Source of the DNA: Populus alba
Lineage: Eukaryota > Streptophyta > Magnoliopsida > Malpighiales > Salicaceae
Reading direction: 5' to 3'
Length of the DNA stretch: 64,000 nt
Assembly: GCF_005239225.2 (NCBI RefSeq)
Contig: NC_133294.1
Coordinates: 23,366,527-23,430,526, forward strand
The notes under the pieces were generated by a model that was not told where the DNA came from, made no database searches, and saw only the letters and a list, made by a program, of their open reading frames with translations. Shown one piece after another: positions 4,363 through 49,812 of this stretch. Each line of letters opens with the position of its first letter. Position 1 is the first letter of the stretch. The position numbers and the translations under genes are program-made.

Positions 4363-4543
4363 TTTTTCTAAAAATGATGAGGATACCCTACAAACTCTAC
4401 CACTTAATGTACGTGACCAAACTCTTATGCACGTATAGGAAGAAAATAAAAGGAAGAAGGAAACAGAACAAAAAAAAAAGTTAGATACAAGAAAAGTGAA
4501 AGTGAAAATAAAATAAATATTATAATTTATACAAGAATTTACC

Positions 4544-4561
4544 TCCCTGGCAATGACGCAA
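4544..4561 (-). other. A1 primer binding site, decayed tRNA-Asp type
   Basis: Lying just inside the LTR edge, these 18 bases match the tRNA-Asp primer site of A2 at 14 of 18 positions. The mismatches are mostly C-to-T or G-to-A transitions on the element strand or its complement, the kind expected from methylated-cytosine decay. Confidence 0.75.
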
Positions 4562-4567
4562 AAAACT

Positions 4568-7864: not shown

Positions 7865-7869
7865 ATTTC

Positions 7870-21560: not shown

Positions 21561-21629
21561 TTCTTAGACTACTTGGATTTTTAGGACTTCATCAATTATG
21601 CCATTAGATTCCTCTCACAACATACAAAG

Positions 21630-23376
21630 TGATTAGTACTTAAAAGTGCATGTTTATCAAGGTTTTATATCATCATTTTGCACTTGAAGTATCAATAACT
21701 CCTTAACTAAAGCATGTTTTATAATAACAACTTTGATATTATAAGATACCTTAATTTATGGTAAATGCTCATCTTAAATGCAGGCCGATCACATAAATAA
21801 AAGGATTGATTGATGAGTTTAAGTATTGAAAGTTAAAGGACAAAGAGATGGCCAAACTTAGAAAAGAGATGTCGGTGCAGTCCAAACCGGAACATTGCTC
21901 GGTAATTGGATCATATCTGGAGCTCTAGATCTCGGATTTAGGTCCATTTTATATGGATGGAAAGGTAAGACAAAGGCCTACAACTTTCATGAGGAGCCCA
22001 AGATCTAAGAAGGCCGTTTTGAAGTCCAAATTGAAGGAACAACGAAGAAGTCCGAAGCTGTCCTGCAGCCCAGACACTATTTAGTGTTCAGCCCATATCT
22101 AGAGTTCTAGAAGTCCAAATGACCTCATCTTTTTTTTGTTGGAAAGCTGAGACAATTTCCTAGAACATTCCTGAGGATTCTGGGCAAATTATGATGTTAG
22201 CAATGACGTTTTGTTCAGACAAGAAGATAAGGATTGTCACCAAAGTCAAGATGTGGCCACCCACTCATCAATTAGTCAACAAATCAATAGTTCCAAATTT
22301 TGGCCTATAAAAGGAGGCACTTACCATGTATTAAGGCATCTTGGTTTCCAGATCAAGATCATGCTCTTGCTTTCTCTCTTTGTATTGCTTATGTTTTGCT
22401 TTCATTAATATCAAGTTTATGCACTTCATTTCCTTTCCTTTGTCTAGTTAACTTCTTTCTCATTTATGTTCTTGTCTTGCTCATTTATGTTTCTTTCTTT
22501 TATTATGTCTAGCTAAGTTAATTATGTCAAGGTGAAAAGGGTACACTAATGGTGTAAGAACAAGTATAATATAAACTTAACATGGACCTTAACGTTGGAT
22601 ACTAACATGTTTTATATTTGTTATCTTGTTCACTTTTAATACGTTGCTTGTTAAATGGTTAATCTAGATTTATGTTGTGTAACACTTGGTACAACAAATA
22701 CTTGGTACTTTCATAGCCCATACTGTATGGTATAACCGACACCTGAGCTATGAAAGGGACTTGATTTGTTGTTAACATAAGTTATAATCATGAATGCCTG
22801 CCAACATTTACAAGTATTAGCTTTATTCGAATAAGATAACTAATGTAATCATGTTAATAATTTATAATCTGATTGGAACCTCCTTTATGTGTGGTTTCCA
22901 ATTGAGGAATAAGAGTTTATATTATACTTGTTTGAAGTACCATTAGTGGATCCTCTAACCTTGACATTCGTTTATATCATTGTTTAATCCTTACATTAAT
23001 CTTCCAACTCAAAGTTCTCATTAATTTCTTCATCTACTTCTATTACCACCACTACTACTACTATTATTTTTATTATTATTGTTGTTGTTGTTATTTACAT
23101 TCTGTAATATATCCCTTTGATCTTTTCATAAACTCAGTATATAGGCTGGAAACCTGTGACCCGATCTTTTGGATAATTCTCAGGTGTAACAACGCCACGT
23201 ACTGAGTATTATAATAATTATTATTGTTATTGTTATTGTTATTGTTGTTGTTGTTGTATTGTTATTTATAATTTATACAATTAACCTCTCTGTGGTTCGA
23301 CCCCGGTCTTGCCGGGTTATTTATTACTTCGACACTCCTGCACTTGGGAAAAGACATCAAGCTTTTGGTCGTGTCA
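21630..23376 (+). repeat. A2 5' LTR
   Basis: TGATTAGTAC to GTCGTGTCA. TATA box at 22306-22312 within CCTATAAAAGGAGGC. A GTTT/ATT microsatellite and the ACGCCACGTACTGAG stretch lie in the last 350 bp. A hairpin (CCCGG-TCTTG-CCGGG) lies about 65 bp before the end. The frames at 22211-22512 recur in the other LTR copies and are not genes. Confidence 0.97.
22306..22312 (+). promoter_or_regulatory. A2 LTR TATA box
   Basis: TATAAAA in the context GGCCTATAAAAGGAGGC. The same sequence is kept in the 3' LTR (32453-32459), in the solo LTRs and, reversed, at about 46330, so it is the likely core promoter for genomic RNA. Confidence 0.75.
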
Positions 23377-23382
23377 AGTTTT

Positions 23383-23400
23383 TGGCGCCGTTGCCGGGGA
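23383..23400 (+). other. A2 primer binding site, tRNA-Asp type
   Basis: TGGCGCCGTTGCCGGGGA is fully complementary to the 3' 18 bases of plant tRNA-Asp(GUC) including CCA. It lies 6 bp after the LTR, a spacing also seen in A1. Confidence 0.93.
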
Positions 23401-23604
23401 GGTAAATTCTTGTATAAATTATAATATTTAATTTATTTTCTCTCTTCACTTTTCATTTTATCTAACTTTTGTTTTGTTTTGTTTTGTTTCTTTTTGTTCT
23501 CTTTTCTTTTCTTCCTTTTATTCTCTTTTTACACGTGCATGCGAGTTTGGTCACGTACATTAAGTGGTCGACTTTGTAGGGTATCCTCATCATTTTCAGA
23601 AAAT

Positions 23605-24270
23605 ATGGCCGAAGAAGATAATCAATCGCTTCATAATGAGAATAATGAGAATAACCGTATGAGAACACTTAGAGACCACATGAATCCCACAAGAACAAGT
23701 GCACCCTTATGCATAGTTTTCCCTCCTGATGCATCTCATTTTAATTTTAAGCCAGGCATTATTCAACTTTTACCATCTTTTCATGGCTTAGACTTAGAAA
23801 ATCCATACTTGCATTTAAGGGAATTTGAGGAGGTCTGTAATACCTATAATGACTCAAATTGTAGCATGAACACCATTCGATTAAAGCTTTTTCCTTTTTC
23901 ATTAAAAGATAAAGCTAAAACATGGCTACAAAATTTAAGACCAGGATCTATTCGTGCTTGGGATGAAATGCAACAACAATTTTTAAAGAAGTTTTTTCCA
24001 TCTCACAGAACAAACTCTTTCAAAAGACAAATCATCACTTTCACTCAAAAACCAGGAGAAACATTTTACCAATGTTGGGATAGGTATCGAGATTTACTTA
24101 ATACTTGCCCACATCATGGTTTTGAAACATGGAGATTGGTTTCACATTTTTATGAAGGTTTAACACCTAGAGATAGGCAAATGGTTGAATTGATGTGCAA
24201 TGGAACTTTCGAAGATAAAGACCCTAATGAAGCAATGGAGTACCTAGACTTGCTAGCCGAAAATGCTTAA
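23605..24270 (+). pseudogene. A2 gag, N-terminal part up to an internal stop
   Basis: Starts at the ATG in AAATATGGCCGAAG (MAEEDNQSL). The longer open frame upstream uses a TTG and is leader sequence. The capsid-like gag core includes KAKTWLQNL, PGETFYQCWDRYRDL and the CPHHGFETW segment typical of plant Athila-type gag (retrotransposon gag family). It ends at TAA (24268-24270) after LLAENA. The related copy A3 reads AQNYDTTGTYEAP through this point, so the TAA replaces a Gln codon (CAA to TAA) and the frame simply continues. Gag would package element RNA in cytoplasmic particles. As it stands only a 221-residue fragment is made unless the stop is read through. Confidence 0.9.
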
Positions 24271-26112
24271 AATTGGGACACCACAGGTACTTATGAGGCA
24301 CCAAGTAAAACACAACCTCATACATCTAGTGGAGGTATGCACAACCTTAGGGAAGATCATGACCTTCAAGCAAAGTTTGCATCTTTAGTTAGAAAAGTCG
24401 AAGCACTTGAATTGAAAAAGAGTGGTCAATTAAAATCTGTTCAAGACATTGTGTGTCAAATCTGTGAAACCAAGGAACACTCAACAAATGATTGTCCAAC
24501 TTTGCCTTCTTTTAAGGAATGCCTCCATGAACAAGCCCATGCTTTAAACAGTTTCCAAAGACCTAACCATAACCCATACTCCCAAACGTATAACCCTGGT
24601 TGGAGAAATCACCCAAATTTCAGTTGGAAGAGTGATAGCAACAATGCACAAACTTCACAGCCACCGTTTCAAGCACACCATAATTTTCAAAATTCTCATG
24701 GATATGCACCTCCTTATGCTCCACCTCCTAGAAGAAATTTTGAGGAAACATTGCATTCATTCATTGAAAAGCAGGAGACAATCAACACTCAACTTGCTCA
24801 AAGCATGACAGATTTTAAAGATGCTCTTGCAAAATTAACATTTGCTCTCAGTTTCCAAGAGAAAGGTAAGTTTCCATCTCAACCACAACAAAATCCAAAG
24901 GGGCAATACAATGCAAATGCAAGTGGTTCTGGAAGCCAACACATGGATCAAGTCAAATCAGTCATCACTCTTCGTAGTGGTAAGGTTATTGAAAAACCCA
25001 TTCTTGAACCTTGTGAGAAAGATGATGAGTCTATCTCTGAGGGTAAGGAAGGGGTTAAACCTGAACATTGCAAAGAAAAGACTGATTCCCCGCCAGCACT
25101 TCCATTTCCTCATGCCATGACCAAACAAAGGAAAGTCAATCACAACCCTGAAATCTTTGAAATTTTCAAACAGGTAAGGATCAATATACCGTTGTTGGAT
25201 GCTATTAAACAGGTTCCTTCCTATGCTAAATTTTTGAAAGATTTGTGCACTGTGAAGAGAAAACTGAATGTGAAAAAGAAAGCCTTTTTAGCCGAACAAG
25301 TAAGTGCCATTCTTCAAAACAATAATGCTTTGAAATATAAAGACCCTGGTTGTCCTACAATTTCTTGCTTTATTGGAGAACATAAAATTGAAAGAGCCTT
25401 ACTTGATCTTGGAGCTAGTGTGAATTTACTTCCATATTCAGTCTTTCAAAGTCTCAATCTAGGTGAGTTAAAACCAACCTCTATAACTCTTTTACTTGCT
25501 GATAGATCTATAAAAGTGCCTAGAGGAATAGTTGAAGATGTGTTCGTACAAGTTGATAAATTCATTTACCCTGTAGATTTTGTTGTCTTGGATACACAAC
25601 CTGTTGAAGCATGTAATTCAATTCCTGTCATTTTAGGACGTCCATTTCTTGCCACTTCTAATGCATTGATTAATTGTAGGAATGGACTGATGAAGCTATC
25701 ATTTGGAAACATGACATTGGAGATGAATATTTTCAACATTTACAAGCAACCTGAAGATGATAATGATTTACAGGAAGTGGACTTTATTGAAAAATTAGTT
25801 CATGATCAATTTCAAACCACTTCCAGTGAAACTGAGATTGATGAATCTGATGATTTGCAAATGGTCTACTTTCAGGAATCAAAGGCATGCAATTGGAGAC
25901 CACAAATTGAAGAATTGCCACCACGATCAATTGAGCCCATACCTTCAAGTGTTCAACCACCAAAACCTGAATTGAAGCCGTTACCATTTAATCTCAAATA
26001 CTCATTTTTGGGAGAAAATGAAACTTTTCCGGTAATAATCTCTTCCAAACTTAATGCACATCAAGAAGGTAAGTTATTACAGATTTTGAAAATGCACAAA
26101 AAAATGCATTAG
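24271..26112 (+). pseudogene. A2 gag C-terminus and protease, open after the stop
   Basis: In frame with the upstream gag fragment. A zinc knuckle CQICETKEHSTNDC (C-x2-C-x4-H-x4-C, about 24460-24500) is followed by an Asn/Pro/Gln-rich linker. The retroviral-type aspartic protease then has its active-site region at LLDLGASVNLLP (about 25400-25435) and later ILGRPFLATSNA. The frame runs to a TAG at 26110-26112. Just before it an A7 run (26098-26104) puts the rest of pol into another frame; the homologous site in A1 has A5. The protease cleaves Gag-Pol. Confidence 0.9.
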
Positions 26113-28868
26113 GATGGACCATAGCTGACATAAAAGGAATTAGCCCTTTGATTTGCACACACAGGATTTATTTGGAGGAAAATGCTAAACCCTCTAGAGA
26201 AATGCAACGAAGGCTTAATCCTAATATGAAAGAAGTAGTGAAAAATGAAGTCATTAAGCTTCTAGATAATGGAATCATTTATCTTATTTCTGACAGCAAA
26301 TGGGTAAGTCCTACCCAAGTTGTACCCAAAAAGTCTGGAGTCACTGTGATAACGAATGAGAAAAATGAGTTAATTCCAACTAGGACTGTTACTGGTTGGC
26401 GCATGTGCATTGACTATAGGAAACTTAATTCAATGACTAGAAAAGATCATTTCCCTTTACCTTTCATGGATCAAATCCTAGAAAGAGTTGCAGGTCATGA
26501 ATTTTATTGTTTCCTAGATGGCTATTCAGGTTACAATCAAATTGAAATTGCATTGGAAGATCAAGAGAAGACTACTTTCACATGTCCATTTGGTACTTTT
26601 GCATATCGAAGGATGCCTTTTGGATTATGTAATGCACCATCCACGTTTCAAAGATGCATGCTTAGCATATTCAGTGATATGGTTGAACGTTTTCTTGAAA
26701 GTTTTATGGATGATTTTTCTGTTTTTGGTGATTCATTTGATGATTGTTTGACTAACTTAGAAAAGGTTTTGAGCAGGTGTGAAGAGAAGAATCTTGTATT
26801 GAATTGGGAAAAATGTCACTTTATGGTAACAAACGGCATTGTACTTGGTCACATTGTTTCATCGAAAGGAATTGAGGTTGACAAATCTAAAATCGAGTTA
26901 ATTGCCAACTTACCAACACCAAAATCTGTTAAAGATGTTAGATCATTCTTAGGACATGCTGGTTTTTACAGAAGGTTTATCAAAGATTTTAGTGTAATAT
27001 CTAAGCCCTTGAGTAACCTTCTAACAAAGGATAATATTTTTGAATGGACTGAACATTGTGAAGAAGCCTTTGTTAAACTTAAAAACTTGCTTACTTCTGC
27101 TCCTGTCATTCAACCTCCTGATTGGTCATTACCTTTTGAAATAATGTGTGACGCTAGTGATTATGCCGTGGGTGCTGTCTTGGGACAAAGAAAAGATAAG
27201 AAACCTTATGTGATTTACTATACAAGTAAAACTTTAAATAGTGCTCAAATGAATTACACCACCACTGAAAAAGAATTACTTGCAGTAGTATTTGCTTGTG
27301 ATAAATTCAGATCTTATCTTGTTGGCTCACCTGTTGTTGTTTTTAGTGATCATGCAGCATTGAAATATCTTCTTTCTAAGAAAGATTCTAAGGCTAGATT
27401 GGTGCGGTGGATTTTGTTACTTCAAGAATTTGATATCACAATCAAAGACAAGAAAGGCACCGAAAATGTTGTTGCAGATCATTTGTCAAGATTGACAACA
27501 GATTCGAAATCTGACATCACACCAATCGATGACTACTTTCCCGATGAATCTTTATTTTCCGTTTCTACGATGCCTTGGTTTGCTAATATTATTAATTTTC
27601 TTGTTTCAGGACAATTGCCAGCTCATTGGAGTACCCAAGACAAAAGAAAGTTCTTGAACGAAGTGAAGAACTTTTATTGGGATGACCCTTATTTATTCAA
27701 ATATTGTCCTGATCAAATATTTCGAAGATGCATCCCTGACAATGAGGTAAGTAGTGTCATTAAATTTTGTCATTCTGAGGCATGTGGGGGTCATTTCTCA
27801 TCAAGAAAGACAACTGCAAAAATCTTACAAAGTGGATTTTATTGGCCCACCATGTTCAAAGACTCACATGCATTCTGCAAGACTTGTGAAAATTGTCAAA
27901 AGTTGGGATCTATTTCAAAACGTCACATGATGCCTTTAAATCCTATTCTTGTCATTGAGATCTTTGACTGTTGGGGTATAGATTTCATGGGTCCATTTCC
28001 TCCATCATTTGGTTTCGTGTACATATTAGTCGCAGTAGATTATGTTTCAAAATGGATAGAGGCAATTCCAAGTCGAAACAATGATCACAAAACAGTGATA
28101 AAGTTTTTAAAAGACAATATTTTGAGTCGATTTGGAATTCCTCGAGCCATAATAAGTGATGGTGGAACACATTTCTGCAACAAGCCATTTGCTTCTTTAA
28201 TGAAGAAATATGGAATCACACACAAAGTTGCCACCCCTTATCACCCTCAGACAAGTGGACAAGTAGAGCTTGCTAATAGGGAGATCAAACAGATCTTGGA
28301 GAAAACGGTGAACCCTAATCGGAAAGACTGGTCTTTAAGACTTAATGATGCACTTTGGGCTTATCGAACTGCATATAAAACATCATTAGGTATGTCACCT
28401 TATAGACTAGTCTATGGAAAACCTTGTCACTTGCCGGTGGAAATTGAACATAAAGCTTATTGGGCTATTAAAGCTTTCAATTCAAACATTGATGATGCTA
28501 GTCAGCTGCGAAAATTGCAAATAAATGAGCTTGAGGAAATTAGAAATGATGCATATGACAATTCAAGAATTCATAAAGCAAGAATCAAAGAGTTTCATGA
28601 CAAGAAAATACTGAGAAAAACATTCAATGTTGGTCAAAAAGTCTTGCTTTATAATTCTCGACTCCATTTATTTCCTGGAAAACTAAGATCAAGATGGAGC
28701 GGTCCTTTTATTGTGAAACATGTGTATCCATATGGGGCCTGTGATATTGAGAATCCAAAGAATGGCAATGTTTTCAAGGTAAATGGGCATCGGTTGAAAG
28801 TTTATTTTGACAATTTTTCAGTTGAAAATGACTCTACTGAATTGAGTGATCATATATATAAAGATTGA
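26113..28868 (+). CDS. pol: A2 pol: reverse transcriptase, RNase H, integrase
   Basis: One open frame to TGA at 28866. No ATG start is assumed, because it should be made as a Gag-Pol fusion. [31 protein letters not shown] and catalytic FMDDF (26703-26717). RNase [34 protein letters not shown] and DHLSR. Integrase: the zinc-binding H/H-C/C set ([18 protein letters not shown]), then the catalytic Asp of WGIDFMGPF, the Asp of IISDGGTHF and the Glu of QVELANREI. The C-terminus ([16 protein letters not shown]) has no chromodomain, as in Athila elements. All catalytic residues are present. It copies element RNA and inserts the DNA. The break lies only upstream, at the A7 run near 26100. Confidence 0.94.
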
Positions 28869-29078
28869 TTCTTTTTCTCACATTGTTTTGTGTTTGTTTT
28901 GGTGTATCTTTTGTTTTGCTAGTTTCTCTCACCCCGGTCAAATGGCGGATAACGGTACTCCGTGACTCTTAAGTCGGTTCTTTCAGTTTCCCATGATAAC
29001 TGATATCTGTGTATATAATTGTGCAATTCTCTGCTCTTTCTTCTTTCTTTGAATCTCCCATCCAATTCTCATTTAAAA
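28869..29078 (+). promoter_or_regulatory. Spacer with core promoter for the NABP-like ORF
   Basis: TATATAAT lies at 29012-29019, followed by a pyrimidine-rich patch (CTCTGCTCTTTCTTCTTTCT) and the ATG at 29079. A polypyrimidine run ending TTTTGCTAG (28914-28922) could alternatively be a splice acceptor for a subgenomic RNA. Either would allow the downstream ORF to be expressed apart from gag-pol. Confidence 0.5.
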
Positions 29079-29627
29079 ATGGACAGCACTCTTGAAAAGT
29101 TGAAAATGTATTTTCCCGCTCTGCCTCAGAATGCGATTACAAAAATTTACCGTGCTAGGTGTGAAAGATTACGGTTGTTAATGAATCATGGAATTCCTGA
29201 AGATATTCGCTGGCTAATTGAAGCAAAGGTCCGATTATCAGGTGAGTCCTCCAATTCTTTCATTTCACACATGCCTGGAACAGGTAAAAGCACTTTTGCA
29301 AAGAAACGTTGTGCAAAACGACTGAAAGTCTGTCACAGATGTGCCAGATGGACTTGTAATGCGACATGTCGTTCTTTAGGAATGGTATCTGTAAACCGTG
29401 AAGATAAAATACAATTCATTAAGGATGGCCTGAGTAAGGGGTCTTTAGATAATCTTTTATTGACCCTTGAGACGCATCCTAGTGGAGATGTGCATCGTGT
29501 AATTCATGATTTATGGCCACAATTCCATAAAGAACATGATCGACTTAGTCTTGGGAATCTGACTAAAAAAGACCCTGTTTGCCAGTTTTTAAGAAAACTG
29601 GATGGGAAGCTTATCCCCGACCCATAG
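29079..29627 (+). CDS. NABP-like ORF: basic Cys-cluster protein between integrase and LOG
   Basis: 182 codons from the ATG at 29079 (context AAAAATGGAC, favourable). An in-frame upstream extension opens only from TTG. The N-terminal ~60 residues are mostly helical in character (LEKLKMYFPAL, IPEDIRWLIEAKV). A basic run at residues 70-83 (KSTFAKKRCAKRLK) leads into C85-x2-C88-x4-C93-x3-C97, followed by REDKIQFIKDG. A Lys/Arg block running straight into C-H-R-C resembles the cysteine-rich nucleic-acid-binding proteins of carla-, allexi- and vitiviruses, several of which affect RNA silencing. The second half of the Cys cluster is spaced more tightly than in those viruses. The role in the element is unknown. 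Host or Athila env-like origins remain possible. A decayed relative of its C-terminus lies at 47826-48019. Confidence 0.6.
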   Translation: MDSTLEKLKMYFPALPQNAITKIYRARCERLRLLMNHGIPEDIRWLIEAKVRLSGESSNSFISHMPGTGKSTFAKKRCAKRLKVCHRCARWTCNATCRSLGMVSVNREDKIQFIKDGLSKGSLDNLLLTLETHPSGDVHRVIHDLWPQFHKEHDRLSLGNLTKKDPVCQFLRKLDGKLIPDP

Positions 29628-29865
29628 AGGGCGTTTAAGCCGTTCTTGGACGTAAAACCAAGGGAAGATGTGAGCCACAATCACAACTACCTGTACATAC
29701 ATACTTTGTCAAAATAAATAAATAAAGAGAGAAAGTGTGAGACGACAGCTGGCCTACATATAGGTGGTATGATTGCATTTTCACTTTTTCATCTATAAAT
29801 TCTTCTCTTCCTTCCCTTCATTTCTACTCATCCCATACATTCATCAAATATAGAAGTGTGTAGAA
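29628..29865 (+). promoter_or_regulatory. Poly(A) signals and core promoter between NABP-like ORF and LOG
   Basis: Three overlapping AATAAA signals (29713-29726) lie about 90 bp after the NABP-like stop. A TATA box (CTATAAAT, 29793-29800) and a pyrimidine patch (TCTTCTCTTCCTTCCCTTCA) follow, then the LOG ATG 66 bp after the TATA. The older copy A3 keeps the same TATA (rc of 47666-47674), pyrimidine patch and spacing (about 64 bp). This suggests LOG was captured with, or acquired, its own transcription unit. Confidence 0.6.
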
Positions 29866-30519
29866 ATGGCAGGTTCCTCAAGTCATCACATAAAAAATAT
29901 TTGTGTTTTCGGTGGATCCAGTCCTGGGAAAGAAAAAGAGTTTTTAGAATCAGCAAATCATCTTGGTCAGGTACTAGCTGAGAGAAAGATTCATTTAGTG
30001 TATGGGGGAGGTAGCCTTGGGTTAATGGGAGGTGTGTCAATAGCTGCATTTTTGGGAGGCAGTCAAGTTTTGGGGGTTGTCCCCAAAGCTTTAGCACACG
30101 GGGACATCATTGGAAAAACAATTGGAGAGGAACTACAGGTCCCAACAATGTCTGACCGACTGAATACCATGTTTAACCATGTTGATGCCTTCATTGCCTT
30201 ACCAGGTGGTCTGGGCACATTGGAAGAGATCTTTCATATTTCATCTTGGGCCCAACTGCACATTCACCATAAACCTATAGGTTTGTTAAATGTTAATGGT
30301 TTTTATGATAAGTTGCTATCTTTCTTTGATCAAGCTGTGGAACAGGAATTTCTAACATCTTCGGCACGACAAATCATAATCTCTGCTGCTACTGCTGAAC
30401 AATTGATTGACCAACTACAATCTTTCATCCCTGTCATTGATCCTTGCATGAGTCGCCTAGATTGGTCAGCTAAGGAAAGTCGTAAAAAGCTTAGATTAGA
30501 TTTGAGCCTTCATCTGTGA
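29866..30519 (+). CDS. LOG: LOG-type cytokinin riboside 5'-monophosphate phosphoribohydrolase inside a retrotransposon
   Basis: 217 codons, ATG at 29866 (GAAATGGC) to TGA. LOG enzymes hydrolyse cytokinin riboside 5'-monophosphates to free active cytokinin bases plus ribose phosphate, in cytosol and nucleus. A Rossmann-like fold is indicated by ICVFGGSSPG (residues 12-21) and LVYGGGSLGLMGGVS (44-58). Arg98 (MSDRLNTM) and the PGGLGTLEE motif (113-121, catalytic Glu121) are present, then SWAQLHIH and KPIGLLN. Length is normal for plant LOGs. It differs from LOG1-9-type proteins in the segment around Arg98 (SDRLNTMF instead of HxRKAEM), like a divergent plant LOG paralogue. It has no introns, unlike plant LOG genes, which suggests capture of an mRNA. 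It is intact although gag is broken. A decayed copy lies at 45213-47602. Confidence 0.93.
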   Translation: MAGSSSHHIKNICVFGGSSPGKEKEFLESANHLGQVLAERKIHLVYGGGSLGLMGGVSIAAFLGGSQVLGVVPKALAHGDIIGKTIGEELQVPTMSDRLNTMFNHVDAFIALPGGLGTLEEIFHISSWAQLHIHHKPIGLLNVNGFYDKLLSFFDQAVEQEFLTSSARQIIISAATAEQLIDQLQSFIPVIDPCMSRLDWSAKESRKKLRLDLSLHL

Positions 30520-31161
30520 AACCTTGTGTCTTTTGTGTTATTAATAGTATATTATTTTGTTTTGTTACTTCTTATATTTGTTTAAGTGTGTTTCAGGTTT
30601 GTCATTGTTCACTGTTTCAGGTGATGTCTTCTATACTCTATCTTTCTACCTTAGGACATTGAGGACAATGTCTCGTTTTGGTTGGGGGGAGAGGGTAGTA
30701 GTTTAAAAAAAAAAAACTAACCAACTAACTGTTGTTGTTTTTAAAAACCATTTGGCAAAACTGTTATTACTAGGATGGCAGAGTAAAGAGGAATTATTCT
30801 TGAGACGCATCGTAGTAAAAATTTTCTAATGGTTATTTGCAATATTCATAACAAGGCCTATTAGAATACTTCTTGAAATATTCAGGTTTACAAACTCTCG
30901 CATTGTTATCACTTGATTCTGCTCATATACTCATTTAACAAGTATTATTAAACCTTCATTTTCACACACACACTTTAACATATGATTGTGGGTTGCACAT
31001 TGGATTATTACATTATTTATGTTCTTTTGTTGAAGGTAACAACTAAGGGTAAGGGTTAGTATATAATTTGCAAAAAAAAAAAAAAAAAAAAAGATGATAA
31101 TATTGATGATAATAAAAACGTAGATAAGTTTGGTTTCGTAGCCTCCTTAACCTAAGCAATT

Positions 31162-31400
31162 AAGCCCGAAGGGGTGTTTTAACACCTAATACCCTAAAGT
31201 CAACTGACTTGGGAGTTATTGGCCCAAAGCTTGTTACATGGGTTAAGGAGAAAAGCTTAAGGGAATCAAACATTGCACTATCTACGTATCAGTATCTGCA
31301 ACCCGAGTTGTTAAGCTCGTAGGGGTGTCTCAACACCTAATGCCCTAAGACCAACTGGTCTGGGAGTCATTAGCCTAAAACTCGTTACATGGGTTAAAGA
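31162..31400 (+). repeat. Duplicated hairpin unit in the 3' tail, period 151 bp
   Basis: Each unit has a small hairpin (GGTGT-TTTA-ACACC at 31173-31186 and GGTGT-CTCA-ACACC at 31324-31337, with one more pair possible in the first) and then a longer one. Unit 1 pairs CTAATA (31186-31191) with TATTGG (31217-31222) and AAGTCA (31197-31202) with TGACTT (31205-31210). Unit 2 pairs CTAATG (31337-31342) with CATTAG (31368-31373) and AGACCA (31348-31353) with TGGTCT (31356-31361). Both end in GTTACATGGGTTAA. The stems differ by paired changes, which suggests a conserved RNA structure. Confidence 0.7.
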
Positions 31401-31760
31401 TACATTATGTTTTAAGTTGTATGTGTATATAAATAAAATTAAAAAAAGAAAAAAAAAAAAAAGAAAAAAAAAGAGTAATAATAATAATAATCCCAACCCA
31501 AGGAAGTTCACCTTAAACATTTGAACATAATATTTTTTTCATCCAACAAAAGCCCCATCATCTATGTTTTCATATATTGAGCACGTAAAAAAGAAGGTTT
31601 ATTAATATCTTGTTTAAGAAGTATGAAGCAGTAATATAAATTTAGTGAGAGTTTGTTTATCTGAATAGATTAATAGAAGTTGAATGATGAATGCCTTGCT
31701 TTGTGATACTTGCAAATTGTTTCGCTATTTTAACGCTTTAGATTACTAGGGACTAGTAAT

Positions 31761-31776
31761 AAGCTGGTTGGGGGTG
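31761..31776 (+). other. A2 polypurine tract region
   Basis: AAGCTGGTTGGGGGTG directly precedes the 3' LTR. The G-rich core GGTTGGGGGTG is the likely primer for plus-strand DNA synthesis and recurs, reversed, next to the A3 LTR at 43948-43962. Confidence 0.8.
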
Positions 31777-33523
31777 TGATTAGTACTTAAAAGTGCATGT
31801 TTATCAAGGTTTTATATCATCATTTTGCACTTGAAGTATCAATAACTCCTTAACTAAAGCATGTTTTATAATAACAACTTTGATATTATAAGATACCTTA
31901 ATTTATGGTAAATGCTCATCTTAAATGCAGGCCGATCACATAAATAAAAGGATTGATTGATGAGTTTAAGTATTGAAAGTTAAAGGACAAAGAGATGGCC
32001 AAACTTAGAAAAGAGATGTCGGTGCAGTCCAAACCGGAACATTGCTCGGTAATTGGATCATATCTGGAGCTCTAGATCTCGGATTTAGGTCCATTTTATA
32101 TGGATGGAAAGGTAAGACAAAGGCCTACAACTTTCATGAGGAGCCCAAGATCTAAGAAGGCCGTTTTGAAGTCCAAATTGAAGGAACAACGAAGAAGTCC
32201 GAAGCTGTCCTGCAGCCCAGACACTATTTAGTGTTCAGCCCATATCTTGAGTTCTAGAAGTCCAAATGACCTCATCTTTTTTTTGTTGGAAAGCTGAGAC
32301 AATTTCCTAGAACATTCCTGAGGATTCTGGGCAAATTATGATGTTAGCAATGACGTTTTGTTCAGACAAGAAGATAAGGATTGTCACCAAAGTCAAGATG
32401 TGGCCACCCACTCATCAATTAGTCAACAAATCAATAGTTCCAAATTTTGGCCTATAAAAGGAGGCACTTACCATGTATTAAGGCATCTTGGTTTCCAGAT
32501 CAAGATCATGCTCTTGCTTTCTCTCTTTGTATTGCTTATGTTTTTCTTTCATTAATATCAAGTTTATGCACTTCATTTCCTTTCTTTTACTTAGTTAACT
32601 TCTTTCTCATTTATGTTCTTATCTTGTCTATTTATGTTTCTTTCTTTCATTATGTTTAGCTAAGTTAATTATGTCAAGGTGAAAAGGGTACACTAATGGT
32701 GTAAGAATAAGTTTAATATAAACTTAATATGGACCTTAACGTTGGATACTAACATGTTTTATATTTGTTATCTTGTTCACTTTTAATACGTTGCTTGTTA
32801 AATGGTTAATCTAGATTTATGTTGTATAACACTTGGTACAACAAATACTTGGTACTTTCATAGCCCATACTGTATGGTATAACCGACACCTGAGCTATGA
32901 AAGGGACTTGATTTGTTGTTAACATAAGTTATAATAATGAATGCCTGCCAACATTTACAAGTATTAGCTTTATTCGAATAAGATAACTAATGTAATCATG
33001 TTAACAATTTATAATCTGATTGGAACCTCCTTTATGTGTGGTTTCCAATTGAGTAATAAGAGTTTATATTATACTTGTTTGAAGTACCATTAGTGGATCC
33101 TCTAACCTTGACATTCGTTTATATCATTGTTTAATCCTTACATTAATCTTCCAACTCAAAGTTCTCATTAATTTCTTCATCTACTTCTATTACCACCACC
33201 ACTACTACTATTATTTTTATTATTATTGTTGTTGTTGTTATTTACATTCTGTAATATATCCCTTTGATCTTTTCATAAACTCAGTATATAGGCTGGAAAC
33301 CTGTGACCCGATCTTTTGGATCATTCTCAGGTGTAACAACGCCACGTACTGAGTATTATAATAATTATTATTGTTATTGTTATTGTTATTGTTGTTGTTG
33401 TTGTATTGTTATTTATAATTTATACAATTAACCTCTCTGTGGTTCGACCCCGGTCTTGCCGGGTTATTTATTACTTCGACACTCCTGCACTTGGGAAAAG
33501 ACATCAAGCTTTTGGTCGTGTCA
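31777..33523 (+). repeat. A2 3' LTR
   Basis: Same length as the 5' LTR. By eye about 21 substitutions separate the two: only one in the first ~765 bp, and about ten between 32585 and 32665. Ends GTCGTGTCA followed by the target duplicate CAAAG. Confidence 0.97.
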
Positions 33524-33916
33524 CAAAGAATCCTAAAAAAGAAAACAAAAACAACATAAACATGATGGTGAGAAAAAAAAATACTAAAAAGAAAAGTAAT
33601 TACTGTTCAGGATATGATCATGAGTTGATTATTGGTGATCAAAGAGGGAAGTATGTATGTGAATTAGGAAGATGTCACTATGATCAGAGACTAGCATGCT
33701 AGGAATATTAAGCTACAATGATTATTATAGAATATATATATAAGAAATATTATAGGCACTATTCTAGTATTGTAATCTGTACCTTTACTATTGTATATTG
33801 CTAACATATATAAATAGAAAATGATTAGTTAACTAATAGGTTAAGCCTCCTACTTCTTCTCAACTTGGTATCAGTGTTTTCTGCCATTAGAACTCCCTAC
33901 TACTCCCCCCCCCCAA

Positions 33917-35000
33917 ATGGACTCTACTGTTGCTGACTTCTCCCTTAACCAAACTAGCATTGCAGCCGAGCCGGCCAACCACTCACAGGTAGCTGCTAGT
34001 GGTGCCTTCCCACAACAGCAGCCTCCTTCGCTAGTAGAGCAAAACAATGACACTTTTTCTCATGTTTCTATCATCCCTCTTCATATTATAGGGACATCAA
34101 CTCCAGCTATAGTTGCTTTGTCCAACACTCAACAAGTTGTTTTGTTGAAGCTTACGAACATAAATTATCTCTATTGGTGAATGTAGATGAAGCCATACCT
34201 TATTGGTCAGGGTGTTTTTCACTTTGTTGATGGCTTAGTGCCATGTCCTCCCTCTCATGTTTCTGACAATTATGCTAGTTTCTCTTTGATAAGTAACCCC
34301 TCTTTTCTTCATTGGAAGTAACATGAATAACTTATTTTGAGCGCGTTACTCTCCTTTCTCTCCATGGATGTGTTGCACCTTGTGGTCAATTGTCATACCT
34401 CACATTATGTTTGGCGCACTCTTAAAAAAGCTCTAGCATCTCCGTCTAATTCTCATATTATGCAACTTCATGGGTCTTTTCAATATCTTTGGCAATGTGA
34501 TGCTCCGGTTGCTATGCATATGCACCAAGCAAAATTGTCATTTGATGAATTGGCTGCTGTTGGCCGACCTATCTCTCTTGAAGATTTCAATCTACATGTG
34601 TTTTATGGCCTTCATGGTAAGTTCAAAGACTTAGTAACCAACCTCATTAATAAGGCAGAACTGCTATCATACACTGACCTTCATAACCATCTCCTTACCC
34701 ATGAATTTCTGCAGAAGACCTCCCTTCAATCCATGGATACAAGCTCACCTCTACTGCCTCAACCACTGCTATTACCAATGCCTTCTACTCACCATGCTAC
34801 ATCTCAGCAAAACCCTAATTTTAGCAGTAACAAGGGATGTTATAATGGTAATTGGCGTCTTAACAGGCACCACCACAACCATCAAAATCGGTCTAAATAC
34901 CATGGCTTCTATTCCTTTGCTCTTGCTAACTAGAGGCAAAATAAATAGCAAGAGAACATGTGCCCCTCTGATCTAAACAGTGGTCCTCTCACTAGTTTTT
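33917..35000 (+). pseudogene. Copia gag remnant
   Basis: Starts at the ATG at 33917 (MDSTVADFSL), a Ser/Gln-rich leader, with the LTNINYLYW motif of copia gag at the end of the first open part (stop at 34178). After stops at about 34318-34335 the frame is open again at 34337-34933: a UBN2-type gag core (TSHYVWRTLKKALAS, MHMHQAKLSFDELAAVG, LHNHLLTHEFLQK) and an Asn/His-rich tail. The stops make it inactive. Confidence 0.8.
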
Positions 35001-42925: not shown

Positions 42926-42957
<32 letters not shown>

Positions 42958-43077
42958 ATTGTTATTTATAATTTATACAATTAACCTCTCTATGGTTCGA
43001 CCCCAGTCTTGTTGGGTTATTTATTACTTAGACACTCCTGCACTTGTGAGAAGACATCAAGCTTTTTGGTCATGTCA
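40912..43077 (+). repeat. Solo LTR with TSD ATAAA and an internal triplication
   Basis: TGATTAGTAC to GGTCATGTCA, flanked by ATAAA (40907-40911 and 43078-43082). At 2166 bp it is longer than other copies, mainly because of three 150-bp tandem units (42381-42830) and a long GTT tract (42928-42956). TATA box near 41586 (CCTATAAAAGGAGGC). Confidence 0.94.
42381..42830 (+). repeat. Three tandem 150-bp units in the solo LTR
   Basis: Units begin at 42381, 42531 and 42681 with ATGCTCTGTGTTTGATCAAG and differ at only a few bases (for example CCTGAC/CTTGAC and GTGACC/GTTACC). The homologous solo LTR at 7490-7650 has a single unit. Near identity means a recent local duplication. Confidence 0.95.
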
Positions 43078-43947
43078 ATAAACATAAATAAACAACATAA
43101 GAACATAAGTATAGTAATGGAAATGAAAAGCATAAACAAGAGATTAAAGAAAATATAACATGAAATAAAACTTAAAACATTACAAAAATATAAAGAAAGA
43201 AAAAAAGAGCATGATCTTGATATGAAAGCCAAGATGCCTAAATGCATGGAAAATGCCTCCTTTTATATGCCAAAAATTTAGAACTATTGATTTGATGACT
43301 AATTATTGAGTGGGTGGCCACATCTTGACTTGGTGACAATCCTTATCTTCTTCTGTAAACAAAAACATCATTGCTAACGTCAGAATTTGAACAGATTTAT
43401 GTCATTAAAGTTCTAGTAAATTGTCTCAGCTTTCAAACAAAAAAAATCGATGCATTTGGACTTCTAGAACTAGAGACATGGGTTAAACACTGAACAGTGT
43501 CTGGGCTGTAGGACAGATTCAAACTTCTCCGTTGTTGCTATAATTTGAACTTAAAAATGGTGTTTTTGAATCTTGCACTTCTCATGAAAGTTTTAGGCCT
43601 ATGTCTTAGCTTTCCATCCATATAGAGCAGACCTAAATCCAAATTCTACAACTCTAGTTATGAACCAATGACTGAATAGTGTTTCATTTTGGAATGAATT
43701 AGCTTCTCTTTTCTAAGCTTAGCCCTCTCTTTGCCTTCTCAATTTCAGTAGTTAAACTAATCAATCAATCCCTTGATTTATGTGATAGACTTGCATTTAA
43801 GATAAACATTTACCATAAATTGAAGGTATCTTATATTATTAGATATGTTATTATAAAACATGATCTAGTTAAAGAGTTATTGATACTTTAAGTGCAAAAT
43901 GATGATATATAAAACCTTGATAAAAATACACTTTTAAGTACTAATCA

Positions 43948-45212
43948 CACCCCCCAACCAGCTTATTACTAGTCCCTAGTAATCAAAGCGTTAAAATAGA
44001 AAAAAATAATTTGCAAGTTCCACAAAGCAAGGCATTTATCATTCAACTTCCATTAATCTATCCAAATAAATAAACTCTCATTATATATAGATATATACAT
44101 ACATACATAAAAAGACAGGTTTATTAATATTTTATTTAAGAGGTATTACCTTTTAAATAAAATATTAATAAACCTGTCTTTTTATGTGCTTATTGTATGA
44201 AAACATAGATGATGGGACTTTTATTGGAAGAAAACAATATTCTATTCTAATATTTAAGGTTGACATCCTTGGGTTGTGATTATTATCTTCTTTTTTTTAA
44301 TATATATACATATAACTTAAAAACACAATGCATCTTTAACCCATGTGACAAGCTTTCAACTAATGACTCCCAGACCAGTTGGTCTTAGGGCATTAGGTGT
44401 TAAGACACCCCTTATAAGCTTAGTAACTCGGGTTGCAGATACTGATACATAGATAATGCAATGTTTGATTCCCATAAGCATTTCTCCTGAACTCATGTAA
44501 CAAGCACTAGGCCAATAGCTCCCAAGTCAGTTGACTTTATGGTATTAGGTTTTAAAACACCCATTCAGGATTAATTGCATAGGTTAGGGAGGCTACGAAA
44601 CCAAACTTATCTACGTTTTTATCATCATCAATATTATCAATTTTTTTTTTTTTGCAAATTATATACTATCCATTTCCCTTAGTTGCTACCTTTAACAAAA
44701 GAAAATAAATAATGCAATAATCCAATGTGCAACCCATAATCATATGTTAAAATGTGTGTGAAAAATAAAGGTTTATAAATACTTGTTTAATAAGTATATG
44801 AGCAGAAACTATTGATAATAACGCGAGAGTTTGTAAACTTGAATATTTCAAGAGAAGTATGTGATAGACCTTGTTATGAATATTGCAAATAACCATTGGA
44901 AAATGTTTACTAAGATGCGTCTCAAGAGTCAATAAAATTCTCCCTTACTTTACCATCCTAGTAATAACAGTTTTGTCAAATGGTTTTAATAATAGCAAAA
45001 ACAGTTAGTAAGTTGTTTTTTAATGTCAACTACTACTCTCTCCCCCCAACCAAAATGAGACATTGTCCTCAATGCCTTAAGGTAGAAAGATAAAGTATAG
45101 AAGACATCACTTGAAACAACGAACACTAACAAACCTGAAATACACTTAAATAAATATAAGAAATGACAAAAAAAAATAATAAGCTATTAATAAAACCAAA
45201 AGACACAAGGTT
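43948..45212 (-). other. A3 3' non-coding tail
   Basis: Collinear with 30520-31776 of A2. The PPT (reversed, CACCCCCCAACCAGC) is next to the LTR. A unique inverted duplication around 44121-44185 (TTATTAATATTTTATTTAAG and its complement) is not in A2. The hairpin pair lies at about 44361-44415 and 44517-44575, and the internal PPT-like CTCTCCCCCCAACC at 45039-45052. Confidence 0.8.
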
Positions 45213-47602
45213 TCATAAACGAAGGCTCAAATCCAATCTAAGCTTTTTACGGCTTTTCTTAGTTGACCAATTTATGCGACTCTGACACGACCAAAAGCTT
45301 GATGTCTTCTCCCAAGTGCAGGAGTGTCGAAGTAATAAATAACCCGGCAAGACCGGGGTCGAACCACAGAGAGGTTAATTGTATAAATTATAAATAACAA
45401 CACAACAACAACAACAATAACAATAATAACGATAATAATAACAATAGTAGTAATAGTAATAGTAATAATAATAATAATACTCAGTACGTGACGTTGTTAT
45501 ACCTGAGAATGATCTAAAAGATCGGGTCACAGGTTTCCAGCCTATATACTGAGTTTATGAATAGATAATAATAATAATAATAGTAATAATAATAACAATA
45601 ATAAATAAAAGAAGGAAGAAATTAATGAGAACTTTGAGTTGGAAGATTAATGTAAGGATTAAACAATGATAAAAACAAATGTCAAGGTTAGAGGATCCAC
45701 TAATGGTACTTCAAATAAGTATAATATAAACTCTTATTACTCAATTGGAAACCACACATAAAGGAGGTTCCAATCAGATTATAAATTGTTAACATGATTA
45801 CATTAGTTATCTTATTCGAATAAAGCTAATACTTGTAAATGTTGGCAGGCATTCATGATTATAACTTATGTTAACAACAAATCAAGTCCCTTTCATAGCT
45901 CAGGTGTCGGTTATACCATACAGTATGGGCTATGAAAGTACCAAGTATTTGTTGTACCAAGTGTTATACAACATAAATCTAGATTAACCATTTAACAAGC
46001 AAAGTATTAAAAGTGAACAAGATAACAAATATAAAACATGTTAGTATCCAACGTTAAGGTCCATGTTAAGTTTATATTATACTTATTCTTACACCATTAG
46101 TGTACCCTTTTCACCTTGACATAATTAACTTAGCTAAACATAATAAAAGAAAGAAACATTAATGAACAAGACAAGAACATAAATGAGAAAGAAGTTAACT
46201 AAGTAAAGGAAAGGAAATGAAGTGCATAAACTTGATATTAATGAAAGAAAAACATAAGCAAAATAAAGAGAGAAGCAAGAGCATGATCTTGATCTGAAAA
46301 CCAAGATGCCTGAATACATGGTAAGTGCCTCCTTTTATAGGCCAAAATTTGGAACTATTGATTTGTTGACTAATTGATGAGTGGGTGGCCATATCTTGAC
46401 TTGATAACAATCCTTATCTTCTTGTCTGAACAAGACGTCATTGCTAACATCATAATTTTCCTAGAATCCTCAGGAATGTTCTAGGAAATTGTCTCAGCTT
46501 TCCAACAAAAAAAAAGATGAGGTCATTTGGACTTCTAGAACTCAAGATATGGGCTGAACACTAAATAGTGTCTGGGCTGCAGGACAGCTTCGGACTTCTT
46601 CGTTGTTCCTATATTTTGGACTTGCAAATGGCCTTCTTAGATCTTGGTGTCAAAATGAAAGTTGTAGGCCTATGTTTTACCTTTGCATCCATATAAAATG
46701 GACCTAAATCCGATATCTAGAGCTCTAGATATGATCCAATTACCGAGCACTGTTCCGGTTTGGACTGCACTGACATCTCTTTTCTAAGTTTGGCCATCTC
46801 TTTGTCCTTTAACTTTCAATGCTTAAACTCATCAATCAATCCTTTTATTTATGTGATAGTCCTGCATTTAAAATGAGCATTTACCATAAATTAAGGTATC
46901 TTATAATATCAAACTTGTTATTATAAAACATACTTTAGTTAAAGAGTTATTGATACTTCAAGTGCAAAATGATGATATAAAACCTTGATAAACATGCACT
47001 TTTAAGTACTAATCAGACTCATAGAGGGATCAATTCTAGGGATGAAAGATTATAGTTGGTCAATCAATTGTTCAGCAGTAGTAGTAGAGATTATGATTTA
47101 TCATGCCAAAGATATTAAAAATTCTTGTTCAACATCATGATCAAGAAAAGACAACAACTTAGCATAAAAAACAATTAATATTTAACAGACCTATGAGTTT
47201 ATGGTGAATGTGTAGTTGAGCTTAAGAGAAAATATGAAAGATCTCTTCCAATGTGCCCAGACCACCTGGTAAGGCAATAAAGACATCAACATGGTTAAAC
47301 ATTGCATTCATTCGATCAAACATTGTGGAGACCTATAGTTCCTCTCCAATTATTTTTCCAATGATGTCCGTTTTTGCTAAAGCTTTGGGGATGACCCCCA
47401 AAACTTGACTACCTCCTAAAAATATAGCTATTGACACCCCCCATTAACCAAGGCTACCTTCCCCATATACTAAATGAATCTTTCTCTCAGCTAGTACTTG
47501 ACTAAGATGATTTGTTGATCCTAAAAATTTCTTTTCTTTACATGGACTGGATCCATCGAAAACACAAATATTTCTTATTTGATGTCTTGAGGAACATGCC
47601 AT
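45213..47602 (-). pseudogene. LOG: LOG pseudogene of A3, interrupted by a solo LTR
   Basis: The start codon is at 47602-47600, with the same upstream TATA and pyrimidine patch as in A2, and the stop is at 45215-45213. The match to the A2 LOG is collinear, including the LPGGLGTLEEIFHI segment that holds the catalytic Glu. Damage: a small deletion at the GGGSLGLMGG motif, several in-frame stops, frameshifts in the last third, and a 1.7-kb solo LTR between GAGTCG and its upstream part. It is not functional. It shows that LOG was already in this family before A2 and A3 diverged. Confidence 0.92.
45283..47015 (-). repeat. Solo LTR inserted in the LOG pseudogene, TSD GACTC
   Basis: Minus-strand LTR, start TGATTAG at 47015 and end TGTCA at 45283, flanked by GACTC (45278-45282 and 47016-47020). 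It resembles the A2 LTRs more than the A1 or A3 LTRs, for example in the CGGTAATTGGATC and GCCACATC segments. The TATA box is at about 46336 on the minus strand. Confidence 0.94.
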
Positions 47603-47825
47603 TTCTACAGGCTTCTATATTTGTTAAATGCATGGGTTGAGTAGAAATGAAGGAAAGGAGGAGAATATTTTATAGACGAGAAATTAAAAATGCAATCAAA
47701 CTACTTATATGTAGGTCAACTAGAGTCTCTCTCTCTCTCTGAAAAAGCATGTGTGTGTACAGGTAGTTGTGATTGTGGCTCACATTTTCTTTTGGTTTTA
47801 CGTCCAAGAATGACTTAAATGCCCT
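47603..47825 (-). promoter_or_regulatory. A3 spacer between NABP-like fragment and LOG
   Basis: Contains the minus-strand TATA-like TATAAAATA (complement of 47666-47674), a pyrimidine patch, and a CTCTCTCTCTCT run at 47727-47741 on the plus strand. The AATAAA cluster of A2 is not kept. Confidence 0.5.
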
Positions 47826-48019
47826 CTATGGGTTGGGGATAGACTTCCCATCCAGTTTTCTTAAAAACTGGCAAACAAGGTCGTTTTTTAGTCAGATTCC
47901 CAAGACTATGATGATCATGTTATTTATGAAAATGGGGCCATAAATCATGAATTGCAAGATGCTTATCTCCATTAAGGTACGTCCTAAGAGTCAATAGAAG
48001 ATTATCCAAGGACTCTTTA
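47826..48019 (-). pseudogene. C-terminal fragment of the NABP-like ORF in A3
   Basis: The stop lies at 47828-47826, in the same context as in A2 (CCCATAGAGGGC). The match covers roughly the last 60 codons (SLDNLLLTLE to the end). The basic and Cys-cluster part is gone: near 48019 the sequence jumps to integrase sequence (CENCQK region), a deletion of about 1.5 kb relative to A2 (27921 to about 29437). Confidence 0.85.
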
Positions 48020-48500
48020 TGTTTTGAAATAAATCCTACCTTTTGACAATTTTCAAAGGTTTTGTAGAATGCATATGTGTCCTTGAACATGGTGGGCTAA
48101 TAAAATCCACTTTGTAAGATTTTTGCAGCTATCTTTTTAGACGAGAAATGATCCCCACATGCCTAAGAGTGATAAAATTTAATGACACTACTTACCTCAT
48201 TGTCAGGAATACATCTTTGAAATATTTGATCAGGACAATATTTGAATAAGTAAGGGTCATCCCAATAAAAATTTTGCACGTCGCTCAAAAACTTTCTTTT
48301 GTCTTGGATATCCAAATGAGTTGACTAAAATCTTGAATCAAGAAAATTGATATTTTTAGCAAACCAAGGCATTGATCTAAGAGAAAGTAAAGATTCATCA
48401 GGAAAGTAATCATCAAATAGTGTGATGTCGGATGCCAAATCTATTGTCAATTTTAACAAATGATTCACGACAACATTTTCAATGCCTTTTTCATCGTCGA
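48020..48500 (-). pseudogene. A3 RNase H end and integrase zinc-binding fragment
   Basis: Minus-strand matches to A2 from the end of RNase H ([11 protein letters not shown] in A2) through the linker and the integrase HHCC region (FWRCIPDNE-like to CENCQK-like), with stops. RT and the rest of RNase H are missing: at about 48507 the sequence passes directly to the protease-upstream part of gag (EIFETFK). Confidence 0.85.
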
Positions 48501-49812
48501 TTTCTTCCTGTTTGAAAGTTTCAAAGATTTCAAAATTGTGATTGACTTCTCTTTATTTGGTCATGGCATGAGAAAATGAAAGTGCTTGTGGGGAATCAGT
48601 CTTTTATTTGCAATGTTCAGGTTCAACCCTTTCCTTACTCTTAGAGATTAACACATTATCTTTGTCACAAGGTTCAAGAGTGGGTTTTTCAATAACCTTA
48701 CCACTATGAAGAGTGATGATTGATTTAACTTGATCCATGTATTGGCTTTTGGAACTACTTGCATTTGCATTGTATTGTCCCTTTGAATTTTGCTATGGTT
48801 GAGATGTAAACTTACCTTTCTCTTGAAAACTAAGAGCAGATGTGAATTTTGCAAGAGCATCTTTAAAATCTGTCATGCTTTGAGCAAGTTGAGTGTTGAT
48901 TGTCTCTTGCTTTTCAATGAATGCATGTAATGTTTCCTCAAGATTTCTTCTAGGAGGTGGAGCATAAGGGCATGCATATCCATGAGAATTTTGAAAATTA
49001 TAATGTGCTTGAAATGGTGGCTGTGAAGTTTGTGCATTATTATTAGCACTCTTCCAATTGAAATTTAGGTGATTTCTCCAACTAGGGTTGTATGTTTGCG
49101 AGAATGGGTTATGATTGGGTTTTTGGAAATTTTTTAAAACATGAGCTTGTTCATGGAGGCATTCCTTGAAAGAAGGTAAATTTAGACAATCATTGGTTGA
49201 ATGTTCATTAGTTCACAGATTTGACACATAATTTCTTGAATAGATTCTATTTGACCACTTTTTTTCAATTCTAGTGCCTCGACTTTTCTAGCTAAAGATG
49301 CAAACTTGGCTTGGAGGTCATGATCTTCCCTTAGGTTGTACATTCCTCCACTAAATGTATGATGTTGAGTTTTACTTGGTGCCTCATAAGTGCCTGTAGT
49401 GTCATAATTTTGAGCTTTTTCAGCTAACAAATCTAGGTAATTCATTTCTTTATCAGGGTCTTTATTTTCAAAAGTTCCATTGCATATCAATTCTACCATT
49501 TGTCTATCTTTAGGTGTTAACCCTTCATAAAAATATAAAACCAATCTCCATATTTCAAAACCATGATGAGGGCAAGTATTAAGCAAGTCTCTATACCTAT
49601 CCTAATATTGGTAAAATGTTTCTCTTGATTTTTGAGTGAAAATGGTGATTTGTCTTTTGAAAGAGTTTGTTTTGTGAGATGGATAAAACTTCTTTAAAAA
49701 TTATTGTTGCATTTCATCCCAAGCACGAATGAATCTTGGTCTCAAATTTTGCAACCATGTTTTAGCTTTATCTTTTAATGAAAAAAAGAAAAAGCTTTAA
49801 TTTGATGGTGTT
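48501..49812 (-). pseudogene. A3 gag remnant, cut by the Tat/Ogre-type element
   Basis: Gag from KAKTWLQNL (about 49770) through CPHHGFEIW (49575) and the zinc knuckle region (about 49225) to the linker near 48510. Open pieces at 49586-49182 and 48860-48648 are separated by frameshifts. The site equivalent to the A2 gag stop reads AQNYDTTG here. The N-terminus lies beyond the nested element. Confidence 0.87.

Follow-up and report, generated by a model that had tools for sequence, protein, structure and literature searches.

A LOG gene within an LTR retrotransposon

The window analysed here, a 64,000-nucleotide stretch of Populus alba DNA, contains an LTR retrotransposon (21630-33523, forward strand) that carries, downstream of pol, an intact gene for a LOG-type protein. 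The element is flanked by a CAAAG target site duplication (21625..21629 on the left and 33524..33528 on the right, both read at the LTR edges). Its 5' LTR (21630..23376), which is 1,747 bp long and of the form TG...CA, is paired with a 3' LTR (31777..33523) at 98.9% identity--that is, with 18 mismatches and 2 gap positions over 1,749 aligned columns--so that, using generic rates, the insertion is roughly 0.4-2 Myr old. Located 6 bp past the 5' LTR is a primer-binding-site-like stretch (23383..23400, read by eye), which is probably of the tRNA-Asp type. This is followed by a gag-protease frame (23479..26112), recognized from the list of open reading frames (ORFs) and from Pfam (Retrotrans_gag, E = 2.6e-21; aspartyl protease, E = 3e-5), and by an open ORF for reverse transcriptase (RT), RNase H and integrase (26148..28868; RVT_1, RT_RNaseH, Integrase_H2C2 and rve). 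The stop and the frameshift that an earlier note on this DNA had attributed to gag are both borne out: the frame has one stop at 24268-24270 and, past 26112, pol reads on in a different frame from gag-pro.

Between pol and the 3' LTR are found, in order and on the forward strand: (i) a T-rich tract ending in CTAG, which resembles a splice acceptor and lies immediately 3' of the pol stop (28870..28922); (ii) an ORF of 182 residues, counted from the first ATG, that resembles viral nucleic-acid-binding proteins (29079..29627; termed here the NABP ORF) and that harbors a basic stretch and a four-cysteine motif; (iii) a TATA-like box, TATAAAT, located 66 bp 5' of the LOG start codon (29794..29800, read by eye); (iv) the intronless LOG ORF of 217 residues (29866..30519), identified as an ORF, by Pfam and by a solved relative; and (v) two G-rich, polypurine tract (PPT)-like tracts, one internal (30680..30695) and one adjoining the 3' LTR (31766..31776), both read by eye. 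The arrangement reported in the earlier note--an intact 217-codon LOG frame between integrase and PPT, within paired LTRs and a CAAAG duplication--is thus confirmed. The noncoding stretch from LOG to the 3' LTR also contains an imperfect direct repeat (78%; 31149-31249 versus 31300-31400), for which cross-matches occur in most of the fetched family copies as well.

The CTAG of the T-rich tract is kept in 18/18 aligned rows, corresponding to 17 distinct copies including that in the window (the remaining LOG-ranked loci being unalignable at 28870..28922), and the TATAAAT is kept in 21/21 aligned rows, corresponding to 20 distinct copies including that in the window. Together these signals suggest that the downstream genes may be expressed from a spliced or an internally started message; this conservation is weak evidence, however, because the aligned copies are closely related.

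The paired TG...CA LTRs, the target duplication and the order gag-protease-RT-RNase H-integrase are those of a Ty3/gypsy element. Additional ORFs downstream of pol occur in Athila elements as well, a trait that is not exclusive to Athila; within Ty3/gypsy, the lineage is probably Athila-like. The Athila label itself goes back to the earlier note and to literature on LOG-bearing elements: Steinbauerova et al. (2011) reportedly described two Athila-like elements with a LOGL4-like extra ORF.

Several other elements surround this one. A decayed, older LOG-bearing relative lies on the reverse strand (43077..49812; LOG remnant at 47017-47602) and is split by a full LTR copy of the same family (45283-47015); this copy sits inside LOG, where an overlap of 5 bases is compatible with a target duplication, and the decayed relative also carries an old pol deletion junction. 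Another family relative on the reverse strand (1-6010), truncated by the window edge, retains a readable RT domain (857-1846); its identity is ~90% over 1-4709, with the LTR part more diverged. LTRs of the family, apparently solo, also occur at two more forward-strand sites, 6047-7868 and 40912-43078 (~80-87% identity). A Copia-type gag fragment directly follows the LOG element (34337-34933, forward strand), and another Ty3/gypsy pol, with RNase H and RT domains, is present in pieces at 57763-59298 on the reverse strand.

Copies across the genome

A search of the 416-Mb Populus alba assembly, in which the window belongs to contig C11, yielded 1,780 LOG candidates at first look, of which the best 150 were scored. 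These best 150 match the window LOG at 94-100% identity over 217 residues (over 216 in one case), with 140 of them stop-free and 10 having one stop, and are distributed over contigs C1-C19 and two further contigs. The count rests on the window LOG as query and older LOG subfamilies, such as those resembling the P. trichocarpa protein P0093, fall outside of it. The NABP ORF likewise yielded 1,695 candidates, the best 150 at 95-100% identity; 60 of these 150 adjoin a best-150 LOG match. Twenty stretches were fetched via LOG, 19 of them 10 kb in length (their 3' LTRs being beyond these stretches), and in all 19 LOG lies between the pol/NABP region and the 3' noncoding stretch of the element. LOG is real, multi-copy, element-borne cargo, as opposed to the single-copy gene that the earlier note had considered as an alternative outcome.

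These data also bear on whether LOG is a host gene in or beside which a retrotransposon has landed. The plant origin of the sequence agrees with that explanation, and nothing further does, whereas the spread of the best matches over the contigs and the constant placement of LOG in the 19 copies contradict it; moreover, the sequence before the 5' LTRs differs between fetched family copies, which argues against segmental duplications of one host locus. Ordinary LOG exons, recognizable by the pattern MH[QE]RKAEM, are encoded at 18 other genome sites (a reversed control pattern matches none). Given the fixed position of LOG within the element across copies, a host LOG beside an insertion was rejected as extremely improbable.

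The LOG protein and its origin

The LOG frame contains zero internal stops and matches the Pfam Lysine_decarbox profile with E = 3.8e-37; its top solved relative is 2A33 (AtLOG3), with E = 4.7e-59. Its motifs include GGSSPG (residues 16-21), YGGGSLGLMGG (46-56), the catalytic arginine (Arg98) and PGGLGTLEE (113-121), an instance of the PGGxGTxxE motif ending in the catalytic Glu121. The least variable 50-bp window inside LOG, among the LOG-ranked copies, spans PGGLGTLEE. Among 25 'LOG-blind' copies, which were picked along the list of NABP matches as described below, Arg98 is kept in 24 (and is replaced by Gln in one) and Glu121 in all 25; Pro113 of the PGG is altered in 5.

Beside these catalytic residues, the active site departs from that of other LOG proteins. 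The MHxRK shared by AtLOG3, AtLOG8, 5ZBJ and YvdD is MSDRL in the element LOG, in which the adenine-site lysine beside Arg98 is replaced by leucine (residue 99, Leu in 25/25 LOG-blind copies) and the histidine two residues ahead of Arg98 is also gone. This change is not peculiar to one copy: the motif could be read by script in 95 of the 120 database relatives listed, of which one was misread and 94 were usable; 86 of those read fit M[SFY][DE]R[LM], and lysine occurs in none of the remainder. According to a study of CgLOG (PMC4979012), the equivalent of the missing lysine, Lys100, is part of the adenine site, and changing AMP-site residues to alanine, Ser19 excepted, almost abolishes activity. 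Hence, with both the lysine and the histidine missing near Arg98, the usual LOG activity may have been lost or changed. The proposal in the earlier note that the element can raise active cytokinin retains the support of Arg98 and Glu121, and is weakened by the leucine next to Arg98.

The element LOG has 50% identity with AtLOG3 and 45% with AtLOG8 (these two being 68% identical), and is 40-50% identical, over 35-40 residues, to six host LOG exons fetched through the MH[QE]RKAEM pattern--which itself includes the lysine and so is silent on whether every host LOG keeps it. This divergence implies that the capture is not recent. In 6/6 of the fetched host exons similarity to the element LOG ends directly after the PG of PGG, much as at an intron, whereas the element LOG runs uninterrupted across the PGG; most likely, judging from this difference, it was derived from a spliced transcript. 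Two proteins named 'LOGL10', P0093 (Populus trichocarpa) and P0115 (P. nigra), have the length of the element LOG and an MSERL motif. These may be retrotransposon ORFs annotated as host genes, a caution for annotators of Populus proteins bearing that name.

One explanation for these features is that LOG has been re-purposed: having lost the adenine-site lysine, it would have ceased to produce free cytokinin and may cleave or bind another nucleotide, for example so as to clean modified AMPs out of the pool used for reverse transcription, or it may partner Gag or the NABP structurally. The replacement of lysine by Leu or Met beside Arg98, while Arg98, Glu121 and PGGxGTxxE are mostly kept, points in this direction, as does the far divergence from AtLOG3, AtLOG8 and the host exons; the near-universal retention of both catalytic residues among the LOG-blind copies speaks against the structural version, which needs neither. 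Re-purposing is best regarded as a somewhat doubtful possibility, and cytokinin release as plausibly the leading role for LOG.

Carriers without reverse transcriptase

Eight of the 19 ten-kb copies are colinear with the window element from gag through LOG. Another eight share a double pol deletion, joining window position 25878 to 27440 and 27905 to 28631, which removes the RT and integrase-core domains and whose breakpoints agree within a few bases. Two copies (L027 and L032) have the common first breakpoint together with a second deletion, from 27921 to 29435, by which the start of the NABP ORF is also lost; this junction is old, since it occurs as well in the decayed relative within the window. 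A further copy (L026) joins the leader directly to 27395. In total, 10 of the 19 copies are without RT and integrase core and yet carry LOG, which is free of stops and frameshifts in 9 of these 10 (a count confined to copies located through LOG, and so no measure of the LOG-bearing fraction among all deleted copies). That RT-less members carry LOG suggests that it may be needed by each copy in cis. Because gag-pro too has a low dN/dS in the RT-less copies (0.20), LOG is not singled out there.

Selective constraints on LOG and its neighbors

Pooled dN/dS for LOG is 0.17 in the LOG-ranked copies. Ranking by LOG score, however, favors conserved proteins, and for this reason the LOG-blind sample is relied upon here. 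It consists of 33 stretches of 851 bp, hand-picked along the NABP match list from two strata, namely 13 of the 60 LOG-linked and 20 of the 90 unlinked NABP matches. A LOG match is present in 27 of the 33 stretches and absent from 6; the 25 stretches with at least 70% LOG coverage were used (the 6 matchless and 2 partial ones being dropped). LOG is open from its ATG in 16 of these 25 and broken in 9; among the 16 intact copies, two carry in-frame insertions, of 3 bases and of 27 bases, and the Arg98-to-Gln change occurs in one.

Variants private to one LOG-blind copy comprise 22 synonymous changes, 60 amino-acid changes and 4 stops, as neutrality would predict, whereas variants in at least two copies comprise 19 synonymous changes, 13 amino-acid changes and 1 stop (Fisher P = 0.0022 versus private). 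Against a null that preserves the kinds of base changes and takes the window LOG as reference, 19/33 shared variants are synonymous where 10.2 are expected (P = 0.0012), and 20/86 private variants are synonymous where 22.1 are expected (P = 0.74). Taken separately, the two strata contribute few shared variants, with 12 synonymous and 9 nonsynonymous ones in the unlinked copies and 12 and 11, respectively, in the linked ones. Shared changes are thus depleted of amino-acid replacements while private ones look neutral, which implies that the LOG protein helps those elements that spread. Such a pattern is expected if inserted copies decay freely and copies that yield other copies must encode a working protein. 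We consider it very probable that LOG is an accessory gene under selection. The earlier note had raised the prospects of a dN/dS near 1 and of a frame left open by chance on a young insertion: the first is at odds with the amino-acid depletion among shared changes, which disfavors the second as well. A chance open frame was rejected.

The same contrast between private and shared variants was applied to the LOG-ranked copies, rows having more than two frameshifts being excluded. It is significant for gag-pro (11 rows, P = 4e-5), for NABP (18 rows, P = 5e-4) and for pol (7 rows, P = 0.008), and is not significant for LOG itself in these copies (P = 0.23) or for gag-pro when confined to the five rows from RT-less copies (P = 0.43).

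The absence of significance for LOG in that sample is one of three observations consistent with LOG being a passive hitchhiker, i.e., a LOG mRNA that was captured and owes its conserved look to recent amplification from one or a few masters; the others are that the scored copies are 94-100% alike and that the LTRs of the window copy differ by ~1%. Recent amplification does not account, however, for the deficit of amino-acid changes that the LOG-blind copies show in shared variants and lack in private ones. Nor does it sit easily with the 98 of 120 listed database relatives that are exactly 217 residues long, down to ~82% identity, even though such databases favor open frames. Passive carriage is therefore considered improbable.

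A virus-like reading frame next to LOG

Two viral Pfam families are recognized in the NABP ORF, Viral_NABP at E = 3.7e-6 and Carla_C4 at E = 2.5e-4, each of which clears its curated cut-off. The match extends to its relatives: at E = 0.01 or better, 39 of 42 family rows match the former and 37 of 42 the latter. Residues 38-120 align with positions 117-202 of the 227-position viral profile, with the last ~60 residues unmatched. Those relatives that are named, among the matches listed, come from Populus, Xanthoceras, Acer and Rhamnella, most rows being nameless.

AlphaFold models of the NABP are of low confidence (pLDDT 55.6 with 42 rows and 62.0 with 84 rows), and a Foldseek comparison of such a low-confidence model with viral folds gave 36 matches, all of them weak (best E = 0.14). 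Of these, 22 are from viruses of the Betaflexiviridae or Alphaflexiviridae. Twenty of the 22 are named as silencing suppressors or as nucleic-acid- or RNA-binding proteins, including that of chrysanthemum virus B. Among solved structures no convincing relative was found (one chain at E = 0.65), and a scan of a viral contig set with LOG and with NABP found relatives of neither. Judged by its profile matches, the NABP ORF is homologous to the nucleic-acid-binding proteins and silencing suppressors of the Betaflexiviridae; that it also acts as a silencing suppressor is a prediction we lean toward accepting. PMC7588395 describes the p12 protein of chrysanthemum virus B as both a nuclear transcriptional activator and a cytoplasmic silencing suppressor. 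The presence of a virus-like ORF beside LOG alters the functional story of the element; the earlier note had overlooked this ORF, as well as the decayed LOG-bearing relative in the window and the high copy number of the family.

A proposed role for the two accessory genes

The explanation favored here, to which we assign a probability of about 0.5, is that this is a high-copy white poplar Ty3/gypsy family with two 3' accessory genes, encoding the NABP and a LOG-derived enzyme, that raises cytokinin and damps silencing. Spliced or internally started element messages would yield the NABP and the LOG protein. The NABP would then damp small-RNA silencing, perhaps in addition to a nuclear role like that of carlavirus p12, and the LOG protein would split N6-modified AMPs, leading to more free cytokinin in the expressing cell. 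Cytokinin, in turn, could keep that cell dividing and meristem-like, thereby favoring integration and inheritance of the element.

The components of this scheme differ in their standing. That LOG works chiefly via cytokinin release is, given the altered active site, slightly less than an even bet. Still more tentative is the idea that the two genes constitute a host-manipulation module, a silencing suppressor combined with a hormone enzyme, that is convergent with the strategy of carlavirus p12, which curbs silencing and redirects host development alike. If the explanation is true, then a mobile element has been selected to keep an enzyme of growth control beside a homologue of viral suppressors. 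In that case two questions become testable: whether retrotransposons steer host cell fate so as to be passed on to offspring, and how plant retroelements escape small-RNA silencing.

Comparison with known systems

The earlier note knew of no described family with a LOG cargo, a statement that published work overturns: section 12 of PMC9289625 (Alvarado-Marchena et al. 2022), citing Steinbauerova et al. 2011, mentions that Gypsy consensuses from Citrus and P. trichocarpa contain YgdH/LOG domains. The P. trichocarpa element and the window family are probably the same family. The LOGL4/YgdH elements of that paper resemble those described here in having a LOG/YgdH domain within a Gypsy element; in the portion of it available, domain presence alone is given, without a selection test, RT-less carriers, an NABP neighbor or an active-site comparison. 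The main texts of PMC7264820 and PMC6317226 yielded none of the words sought for LOG or for carlavirus domains, and no report of a virus-type NABP in retroelements was found in the literature, as judged by titles and the openings of abstracts. As far as searched, with subscription literature mostly uncovered, the LOG cargo is known, while its selective upkeep, its RT-less carriers, its active-site change and its virus-type partner are undescribed.

Among Athila-related elements, Diaspora and Tpb1-1, the latter from Populus, are likewise Ty3/gypsy elements with long LTRs and are reported in PMC1142308 to be without a recognizable ORF in the stretch from pol to the 3' LTR. A parallel to the capture itself is a Ty3/gypsy group of Phalaenopsis with an ORF for an AlkB-type demethylase, which is also a captured and amplified enzyme gene; there the enzyme is a different one and, according to PMC9289625, its activity has been demonstrated in vitro.

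At the protein level, the element LOG is like AtLOG3 and AtLOG8 in sequence family, in length and in having PGGxGTxxE and the catalytic Arg and Glu; it is unlike them in being intronless, in being only 45-50% identical and in having MSDRL in place of MHxRK. In addition, the cysteine of the plant LOG motif VFCGSS is glycine in the window copy and is retained in some relatives, such as P0093. The element NABP, for its part, shares with those of carlaviruses and other Betaflexiviridae (such as p12 of chrysanthemum virus B) a basic stretch and a four-cysteine motif; in contrast to them, it matches only in part, it is carried by an LTR retrotransposon, and suppression of silencing is, in its case, predicted.
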